From Actinoallomurus sp. (GTDB lineage Bacteria > Actinomycetota > Actinomycetes > Streptosporangiales > Streptosporangiaceae), in the NCBI GenBank assembly GCA_025964685.1, contig JAOPYG010000446.1, positions 1-36,870 of the forward strand: a stretch of 36,870 bases of DNA, written 5' to 3'. The notes beneath the pieces were generated by a model, which saw only the letters and a list, made by a program, of their open reading frames with translations, made no database searches and was not told where the DNA came from. A program made the position numbers and the translations under genes. Shown here piece after piece: positions 2,127 to 33,722 of the stretch (position 1 is its first letter; each line of letters begins with the position of its first letter).

Positions 2127-2610
2127 AGGCGGCCCGACAAAGCCGACCACCCCCCGCGAAGCCAAAGGCAAGCGGGGCCGAGAGGGGGCCGGGGCCGAGA
2201 CGCGGGCGGAGCCGAAACGGGAACGGCCGGCCGGCCGCACCGGGCGGCCGGGTGCGACGCCGCAGGCGTGTGGGGCCAGACGGTGACCAGACAGAAGCCG
2301 AGACCATACGGAAGCGAGTGCCGCACAGGAACCGACAGCCGGACGGAAACCGCAACGCCGCAGGCGCGCGGAGAACCAGCGAAGGCCAACCGCGACCAAG
2401 CCGAGAGGAAAGCGAGTTCCGGGCGGGCACGAACGGCCGGGCGGAGACCGCAACGCCGAAGGCAAGCGAAGGGCCGGGCGGACACGGCAACGCCGCAGGC
2501 ACACGGAAGGCGGGAGGGCAACCACGAGGCCGAAGGCGAGCAGAAGGCAAGCGGAAGGCGAGCAGAAGGAAGGCGAGACGGAGCCCGCAAAGCCGAAGGC
2601 GAGCAAGAGG
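2127..2610 (+). other. Extreme T-depleted block (non-coding)
   Basis: By hand count only eight T occur on the + strand in these 484 bases (2253, 2269, 2271, 2284, 2307, 2319, 2417, 2418), while A stays common. Three stretches have none at all: 2127-2252, 2320-2416 and 2419-2610 (192 bases). All stop codons contain T and, read from the other strand, all contain A. A T-free stretch therefore has no stops in any of six frames, which explains the pile of overlapping open frames here. Those frames encode low-complexity Arg/Gly/Ala/Pro-rich strings without ribosome binding sites. I see no gene in 2126-2723. Confidence 0.9.
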
Positions 2611-2990: not shown

Positions 2991-3061
2991 GCGGGCGTAG
3001 CTCAATGGTAGAGCCCCAGTCTTCCAAACTGGCTACGCGGGTTCGATTCCCGTCGCCCGCT
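2991..3061 (+). tRNA. tRNA-Gly(UCC)
   Basis: Complete 71-base cloverleaf: acceptor GCGGGCG/CGCCCGC, D arm GCTC...GAGC, anticodon stem CCAGT/ACTGG with loop CTTCCAA (anticodon TCC), T arm GCGGG-TTCGATT-CCCGT, discriminator T. CCA is not encoded. A -10-like TACGCT lies about 55 bases upstream. Confidence 0.97.
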
Positions 3062-3089
3062 CCCCACAAAAAGGCCCAGGCCAATCGGC

Positions 3090-32530: not shown

Positions 32531-33722
32531 TGAGGTCGGAGGCGTCCTGCGCGTCCTCAGCGGCGGGCTGCCCGGTGCCGAGACCGGCCGGGACCAACAA
32601 TGCCGCCGCCAGCGGGAACACCACGACGGCGCCGAACGCCGTACCGTACGCCGCCCCGGTGACGAGCGCGCCGAGCACCGGCGGGGTCGCGGCGGCGAGC
32701 AGGTTCTGGCCGGTGTTCTGGATGCCGAGCGCGCGGCCCGCCCATGAGCGCCCGGCGTACTCCGCCACCGCGGTGAAGGCGAGCCCGTTCGTGGTCACGG
32801 TGACGACCGCGGCGGCGAGCAGGGCGACCGTGGCGATCTCCCGCCCGGAGATCACACCGGCGGCCAGCACGAGCATGATGACGCCGATGGCCACGGCGAG
32901 CGTGCGCATGGGGCGTACGCGGCTGCCCGTCCGGTCCGACCAGTGGCCGACGACGAGCCGCGCCACGGCGCCGCCGACCTGGGCGACGGCCAGCGTCCGG
33001 CCCGCGGTCGCACCGTCCCAGCCGCGGGCGTCGACGAGGTAGACGAGAGCGAAGGCGGAGACCGCGAACTGCGGTACGACCAGCAGTGCGCTCGCCGCGT
33101 GGATCCGCCACAGCACCGGCGTACGGTACGGGGAACCGCCGCGATGCTCCTCGCCGGTCTCGGGCCGGGCGGGATCGCGGACGAGCACGGCCACGAGCAG
33201 CGCGGCGCCCAGGCAGCAGCCCGCCAGCAGGTACAGACCGCCGGCGAGCCCGGCGCGCGCGGCGAGCGGCGGCAGGGTCAGCGCGGCGAGTCCGACGCCG
33301 AGCGGTTGCCCGGTCTGGCGTACGCCCATCGCCAGCCCGCGTTCGTGCGCCGCGAACCAGCCGAGGATCAGCCGGCCGCTGGCGGCGTGGATGGACGCGC
33401 CCCCGGCTCCGGCGACGAAGAAGCAGGCGCCCAGCGCAGGCGTACCTGACGCGGTCGTGGCGGCCAGGAGCGCGAGCCCGGCGATGGTGAGGCCGGTGCT
33501 GAGGATGACGCGTTCGCCCCAGCGGTCCGCGGCGATGCCCCACAGGGCCAAGGCGACCAGCAGGCCGGCGACCGGGCAGGAGATGACGATCGCCGCCTGG
33601 CGCAGGGTCAGTCCATTGTCCGCCCGTAGTGCCGGGATCAGGTACGGAAGGCCGTACTGGTAGGCACACCCAGCGATCATCGCGAAGAGGCCGACAATGA
33701 GGATCGACCAACGCCTGTTCAT
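32520..33722 (-). CDS. MFS transporter
   Basis: 400 residues with about twelve hydrophobic helices. MFS motif A-like loop: LWGIAADRWGERVILSTGLT between helices 2 and 3, and VVGHWSDRTGSRVRPMRTLA in the second half. RGLAMGVRQTGQPLGVGLAA and ALGIQNTGQNLLAAATPP are typical of the oxalate/formate and nitrate-like group of MFS permeases. Substrate unknown; an efflux role is possible. Start ATG 33722 has no ribosome binding site; TAGTAT sits six bases upstream, so it is probably leaderless and controlled at a palindromic site there. Confidence 0.9.
   Translation of the reverse strand: MNRRWSILIVGLFAMIAGCAYQYGLPYLIPALRADNGLTLRQAAIVISCPVAGLLVALALWGIAADRWGERVILSTGLTIAGLALLAATTASGTPALGACFFVAGAGGASIHAASGRLILGWFAAHERGLAMGVRQTGQPLGVGLAALTLPPLAARAGLAGGLYLLAGCCLGAALLVAVLVRDPARPETGEEHRGGSPYRTPVLWRIHAASALLVVPQFAVSAFALVYLVDARGWDGATAGRTLAVAQVGGAVARLVVGHWSDRTGSRVRPMRTLAVAIGVIMLVLAAGVISGREIATVALLAAAVVTVTTNGLAFTAVAEYAGRSWAGRALGIQNTGQNLLAAATPPVLGALVTGAAYGTAFGAVVVFPLAAALLVPAGLGTGQPAAEDAQDASDLSPS

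Follow-up and report, generated by a model that had tools for sequence, protein, structure and literature searches.

The T-Depleted Block and Its Setting

The window analysed in this work is a stretch of 36,870 nucleotides from Actinoallomurus sp. (contig JAOPYG010000446.1), and its source genome is a draft of 7.6 Mb in 502 contigs, 88% complete. It harbors a PPOX-like gene (PF12900) at positions 1691-2125 of the + strand, with a tentative 5' end, and, convergent with it, a tRNA-Pro gene (anticodon TGG; 2723-2797, - strand), which is divergent from a tRNA-Gly gene (anticodon TCC; 2991-3063, + strand). Flanked by the stop codon of the PPOX-like gene on one side and on the other by tRNA-Pro, which points at it, lies a block (2127-2610) that is nearly devoid of T on the + strand. 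Our recount yielded 127 A, 149 C, 200 G and 8 T over its 484 bases, and T-free runs of 192 (2419-2610), 126 (2127-2252) and 97 bases (2320-2416); the run lengths and the number of T are identical to those counted by eye in a preceding sequence-only reading of the same DNA. The + strand of the block is 67.5% purine, and the RNA produced by run-on transcription from tRNA-Pro would be 67.5% pyrimidine.

The claim of that reading that chance cannot give such T-free runs is upheld. Assuming independent bases, 1.5e-10 T-free runs of at least 192 bases are expected in 36.9 kb, and in 60 simulations under an order-4 Markov model, trained on the window minus the block, the longest run was 72; the observed lengths exceed both expectations and are therefore not due to chance. 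Elsewhere in the window, T-free runs do not exceed 56 bases and A-free runs do not exceed 50. Nor did the sampled part of the same genome contain another run of such length: across 267 kb, comprising the window and 20 further stretches, the three runs of the block outrank every other T- or A-free run, the next one (70 bases) falling inside a predicted gene. The intergenic gaps of at least 40 bases were inspected in the same 267 kb (genome G000), in 674 kb of the genus mate G001 and in 400 kb of genome G091, and an |AT skew| above 0.6 was found in 0 of 124, 1 of 379 and 6 of 230 gaps, respectively; a general intergenic skew was discarded as an explanation, being absent around protein genes in these samples, single loci excepted. 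One further stretch of the window (33161-33290; 3 T in 130 bases) is T-poor to a milder degree and lies inside a predicted gene of the - strand.

A Diverged Tandem-Repeat Array

The T-free block is a worn (diverged) tandem-repeat array lying where run-on transcription from tRNA-Pro would pass. It includes four copies of 98 bp in tandem on the + strand (2126-2517; starts at 2126, 2224, 2322 and 2420), which have diverged to pairwise identities of 0.38-0.59, and the unit GCC[GA][AC]AGGC occurs at 2161, 2259, 2357 and 2455, at a spacing of exactly 98 bases. Further copies of the unit lie in the block region at 2492, 2529, 2592 and 2619, those anchored at 2455, 2492 and 2529 forming 37-bp repeats (2455-2547, + strand); outside the array it is found at two + strand and four - strand positions of the window. 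The identity at lag 98 over positions 2140-2480 is 0.547, the highest among lags 5-199 (mean 0.328, sd 0.038), and the permutation maxima were 0.458 (n = 150, lags 20-149) and 0.428 (n = 1850, lag 98 alone). Tandem Repeats Finder reports just the 37-, 17-, 11- and 4-bp parts of the array. The number of distinct 10-mers in the block is 17.6 sd below that of dinucleotide shuffles (17.9 sd below in 2419-2610 and 5.5 sd below in 2127-2418), and seven other stretches of the window range from -1.9 to +0.8 sd. The last unit (2611-2638, + strand; anchor 2619) is directly followed by a G-run hairpin element (2639-2664), and the units of the array resemble the conserved sequence adjoining this element. 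The sequence-only reading had seen the T depletion but overlooked both the diverged array and the multicopy, tRNA-linked element beside it.

The Same Interval in Related Genomes

Seven genus mates were compared, six of which are readable at the interval between the PPOX-like gene and tRNA-Pro (in G005 it is split over contigs). Recurrence of the depletion at orthologous intervals, which the sequence-only reading had named as a check, is seen in three of them: the interval is a T- or A-poor, low-complexity array in G001, G002 and G006, but has ordinary composition (T 13-14%), other sequence and a longer gap in G003, G004 and G007. The units differ from one array to another, consisting of 31 copies of 13 bp plus GCCGAAGGC units in G001, 7.9 copies of 14 bp in G002 and 10.3 copies of 7 bp in G006, and show no conservation across species; the last unit and the element adjoining tRNA-Pro are conserved in G000, G001, G002 and G006. 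On the window's strand T accounts for 3.0% in G000, 3.5% in G002 and 5.5% in G006, and the array of G001 consists of two halves, the one on the side of tRNA-Pro being T-poor and the one on the PPOX side A-poor and G-rich. The PPOX-like proteins of the array-bearing G001, G002 and G006 share 72-81% identity with that of the window, versus 65-67% for the others.

The possibility that GCGAAGCCGAAGGCGAGC is a genus-wide repeat was considered and rejected, since its 15 matches are confined to 6 of the 200 genomes of the family, three of them lying at the present locus in G001, and the window's own genome lacks it. The matches in G044, G091 and G191 lie in apparently extragenic stretches (L160-L162, L164, L165, L167-L171), several of them between palindromic arms, and perhaps represent a REP-like family of that genus. 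Two other arrays were observed outside the predicted genes of G001: an 835-bp array of 104 copies of an 8-bp unit (L066, 14101-14935; 99% matches), A-free on its + strand, and an array of 24.5 copies of a 16-bp unit (L182, 6910-7301; 100% matches).

The G-Run Hairpin Element and Its Linkage to tRNA Genes

The G-run hairpin element (2639-2664, - strand; a match antisense to tRNA-Pro) has the form GGGGGG..CCCCCC in the run-on RNA, and a small GC inverted repeat lies just past tRNA-Pro (2690-2703, - strand), its form being conserved in the alignment of four species. The element is multicopy in the genus: allowing up to 3 mismatches, 33 sites were found in seven of eight genus genomes, and the reversed pattern gave no site in the same eight-genome search; an Rfam scan of the window gave no match at the element. 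Thirty sites were fetched, 21 of which adjoin a tRNA gene (Pro, Leu, Ala, Ser, Thr, Val or Ile) with a gap of 10 to 142 bases, the orientation of element to tRNA being identical in 21 of 21; at the remaining nine no tRNA was called within the scanned stretch. Over the next 300 bases past the element, 27 of the 30 sites have more A than T (one opposite, two ties), a count based on rounded percentages and including orthologues, so that the sites are not independent. At tRNA-Leu, A and T make up 22% and 2% in G004 (anticodon CAG), 26% and 6% in G007, and 21% and 5% in G003, and TTCG and CGAA stand at 74:4 on the sense strand over the element loci. Given that the tRNA-Leu sites are similarly skewed, it is at several loci that the T-poor strand is antisense to RNA running on from a tRNA gene. 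The T-free strand is thus the counterpart of a tRNA run-on RNA that is poor in A and bears UUCG. The tRNA-Leu (CAG) locus of G004 (L356 and L242), whose run-on strand contains 8 A and 81 T in 370 bases and is tandemly repeated, is an independent case of the same skew.

Reading of the sequences also revealed terminator modules that look tandemly duplicated at Ser-CGA of G004, Asn and Ser-TGA of G001 and Ile of G003 (loci L346, L143, L335 and L248). At two loci of G002 (L252 and L260) the element lies beside what appears by eye to be the 3' part of a tRNA-Thr, where ARAGORN calls none; these pieces are possible tRNA fragments.

Composition of tRNA Flanks at Large

The link with tRNA genes was also examined over the noncoding sequence 31-400 nt past terminal tRNA genes, anticodon TGG being left out. 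On the sense strand of G001, flanks with T above A outnumber the opposite ones 29 to 9 (2 ties; p = 0.0017), versus 13 to 18 at protein 3' ends (n = 34, 3 ties; Mann-Whitney against tRNA flanks, p = 2.6e-4). The corresponding ratio in G004 is 21:11 (2 ties; p = 0.11, not significant), with controls at 18:14 (Mann-Whitney, 0.19). The TTCG:CGAA ratio of the sense strand is 99:43 in G001 and 91:49 in G004, against 226:230 (p = 3e-5 vs tRNA) and 45:45 (p = 0.028) in the respective protein 3' flanks. Over 31-200 nt, T exceeds A by 30 to 5 among 35 loci from other genera of the family (TTCG:CGAA 32:24) and by 20 to 7 among 28 from a sample of the class (26:15). The T peak 31-60 nt past tRNA genes is as expected from ordinary U-tracts.

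Three extensions of this picture were tried, of which the first two were discarded. It is not the case that every tRNA flank is extreme: among 30 tRNA loci of G001, T- or A-free runs longer than 100 occur only at L135 and L147, which are this locus, and the longest elsewhere is 89. Nor are tRNA flanks hot spots of repeats, a 10-mer redundancy above 0.03 being found at 3 of 34 tRNA vs 23 of 188 protein flanks in G001, and at 4 of 32 vs 2 of 26 in G004; over the tRNA loci, skew and redundancy are correlated with rho 0.38 (p = 0.026) in G001 and rho 0.16 (p = 0.40) in G004. The presence of a G-run hairpin within 200 nt is weakly associated with the skew (p = 0.029 in G001, n = 9 v 32, tRNA-Pro included; p = 0.030 in G004, n = 4 v 30). 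Redundancy not being raised, the arrays are local and the mild strand bias is wider. The tRNA link suggested by the sequence-only reading stands in part, in that the skew follows tRNA orientation and recurs at tRNA-Leu, but as a general rule it is weak, being significant in G001 and not in G004. Our literature searches found no paper on T-free tRNA flanks.

Maintenance of the Composition and Possible Role of the Array

The four 98-bp copies share a mean identity of about 48% when compared without gaps, a procedure by which unit shuffling could inflate their apparent age, and just 9 of their 392 bases are T. Had a T-free ancestor diverged to 48% identity under strand-symmetric mutation, about 32 T would be expected (31.5 to 36.5, depending on the transition bias), and a count of 9 or below was reached in none of the 300 simulations run for each matching setting; were the copies 70% identical, this would occur in 6-10% of simulations. 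The observation of 9 T versus about 32 expected implies that the composition was maintained. The T-poverty might have been kept by selection on the termination of run-on transcription, made by asymmetric mutation, or carried along by the shuffling of T-free units; we prefer selection, which is an inferred cause.

Our proposal, which we advance tentatively, is that the array quite possibly acts as an extended termination and insulation zone for run-on transcription from tRNA-Pro. With the array interposed between the G-run hairpin element of tRNA-Pro and the convergent PPOX-like gene, a polymerase passing the first hairpins would produce a long C/U-rich, UUCG-bearing RNA in which small GC hairpins abound, and might be halted by clusters of hairpins and/or by Rho before its antisense entry into the PPOX-like gene. 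Such arrays may grow and turn over by slippage, and strand-specific selection may exclude A from the run-on RNA; an A-poor, C/U-rich run-on strand with UUCG entails a complementary + strand without T. In favor of the proposal are the two repeat periods, the arrays of other units that fill the interval in G001, G002 and G006, the uniform orientation of the element and the excess of A beyond it, the excess of T and of TTCG past tRNA genes, and the deficit of T relative to symmetric mutation. GC hairpins past the gene are present (2639-2664 and 2690-2703, in four species), and no U-tract follows, since GGAGCCCCCC continues the run-on strand after the G-run hairpin. Mycobacterial polymerase is said, in the title of one paper, to require a U-tract. 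The terminator regions of tRNA-Pro fold weakly better than shuffles (z -0.79, -1.23 and -1.60), one tRNA-Leu terminator (L356/L242 of G004) has a better fold than any of its 200 shuffles (z -3.4), and for the block itself neither strand has an advantage over shuffles (z 0.05 and 0.07). The run-on strand has C above G and is YC-rich in all five segments of the four species at the Pro locus, including the half of G001 with reversed T/A skew (0.246-0.354; intergenic reference of G001: mean 0.171, 95th percentile 0.223). At the tRNA-Leu sites the run-on strand has G above C and is not YC-rich, which counts against a common Rho signal. Further observations speak against a termination zone: the run-on strand of G001 near the PPOX-like gene is T-poor rather than A-poor, G003, G004 and G007 do without an array, the skew of tRNA flanks is not significant in G004, and TTCG outnumbers CGAA by just 32:24 in other genera.

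According to a different, somewhat unlikely explanation, the block might be a neutral minisatellite without function, its T-free units having multiplied through slippage that the gap between the convergent genes tolerates; its copies would differ mainly by shuffled, inserted or deleted short T-free pieces rather than by point mutation. The low complexity of the block, the poor alignment of the copies without gaps, the occurrence in each species of its own units at the same place, and the existence of several other intergenic arrays of G001 that are A-free or T-poor are all in line with this idea, but the exact 98-bp spacing of four anchors points to substitution, not reshuffling, at least there, and neither the scarcity of T despite 48% identity nor the single orientation at tRNA-linked sites is easily accommodated. 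We regard as rather improbable that the skew was produced by strand-asymmetric mutation, that is, by damage during tRNA-Pro run-on to the displaced (-) strand, through which the + strand would gain A and not T. The mismatches do have the corresponding bias: repeat families D1, D3 and D5 show A/G 61, A/C 26, C/G 24, C/T 2 and G/T 2, the 98-bp copies A/G 111, C/G 94, A/C 75, C/T 10, G/T 8 and A/T 7, and the columns that vary among four species close to tRNA-Pro A/G 12 and A/C 6 against C/T 3 and G/T 2; the general excess of T over A past the tRNA genes of G001 goes in the same direction. However, mismatch classes also reflect composition itself, and the unit-anchored count is less one-sided (A/G 200 and C/T 21 in the window; A/G 567 and C/T 44 in G001). 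Moreover, the locus is the sole extreme one among the 30 tRNA loci of G001, three genus mates are unskewed after the same tRNA-Pro, the far half of the G001 array is skewed oppositely, and C is undepleted on the displaced strand.

The remaining explanations are far less probable. By the usual rule for the stability of R-loop hybrids, the purine-rich + strand would favor hybrids with RNA arriving from the PPOX side; the earlier suggestion of R-loop formation is nevertheless not supported, and R-loops made by tRNA-Pro run-on look unlikely because that RNA would be pyrimidine-rich. A structured RNA, suggested on the same occasion, is at odds with the fold z-scores of the block, with the absence of any Rfam family over it and with units that are unconserved between species, so that an R-loop region or structured non-coding RNA appears very improbable. 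Still more remote is a cryptic gene or what is left of a mobile element that had inserted itself at tRNA-Pro, tRNA genes being common integration sites. Long open frames do span the block, and two of them on the + strand run into tRNA-Pro, but a T-free block contains no stop codon on either strand and all six frames are trivially open; the three long ORFs tested gave no Pfam match. No second copy of tRNA-Pro sequence of at least 14 bases, as expected of an att site, was found in the window, and searches for plasmid and phage sequences, filtered for low complexity, gave no match at E 1e-5.

The block is a real outlier whose anatomy is explained and whose composition may be owed to selection, mutation or shuffling. 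If the exclusion of a base persists through deep repeat divergence, then either the composition of run-on RNA is selected or transcription leaves a one-sided mutational mark beside tRNA genes; in the former case, the locus would offer a handle on how GC-rich actinomycetes terminate tRNA transcription without U-tracts. We can speculate, with considerable doubt, that in this genus a multicopy terminator element stands past the tRNA genes and leads into run-on zones that are expandable and strand-polarised and whose RNA is kept free of adenine, and that unrelated units converge on strand composition, so that selection or tRNA-driven mutation would act on the letters and not on the sequence of the run-on transcript.

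Comparison with Known Systems

Transcription-associated mutagenesis at tRNA genes is a known process, and the strand bias described here likewise begins past a tRNA gene; unlike in that process, one base is almost totally lost, and at one locus only. The array shares with the intergenic minisatellites (VNTRs) of bacteria its tandem, head-to-tail units (as seen from the 98-bp lag identity and the 37-bp copies), its low complexity, and the presence of different arrays at one place in the relatives (the unit varies in G001, G002 and G006), but it is strongly worn, has kept its one-sided composition and has an orientation tied to the tRNA. Clusters of hairpins without U-trails have been described as terminators (PMC8355165), and several small GC hairpins past the gene, with no U-tract after the G-run hairpin, are found here too; that work centers on protein genes and short distances, 98% lying within 80 bases of the stop codon, whereas the present locus has about 500 bases of array and a putative terminator known from its sequence. 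As to rut regions, the Rho of E. coli has a preference for C-rich RNA, and that of actinobacteria is thought able to cope with GC-rich RNA (PMC4167861). The run-on strand at tRNA-Pro resembles such a region in having C above G and being YC-rich in four species; it differs in that the RNA is GC-rich and folds strongly (-221.9 kcal/mol over 524 nt, like GC-rich shuffles) instead of having little structure, and in that the signal is absent at tRNA-Leu, the role of Rho being putative.
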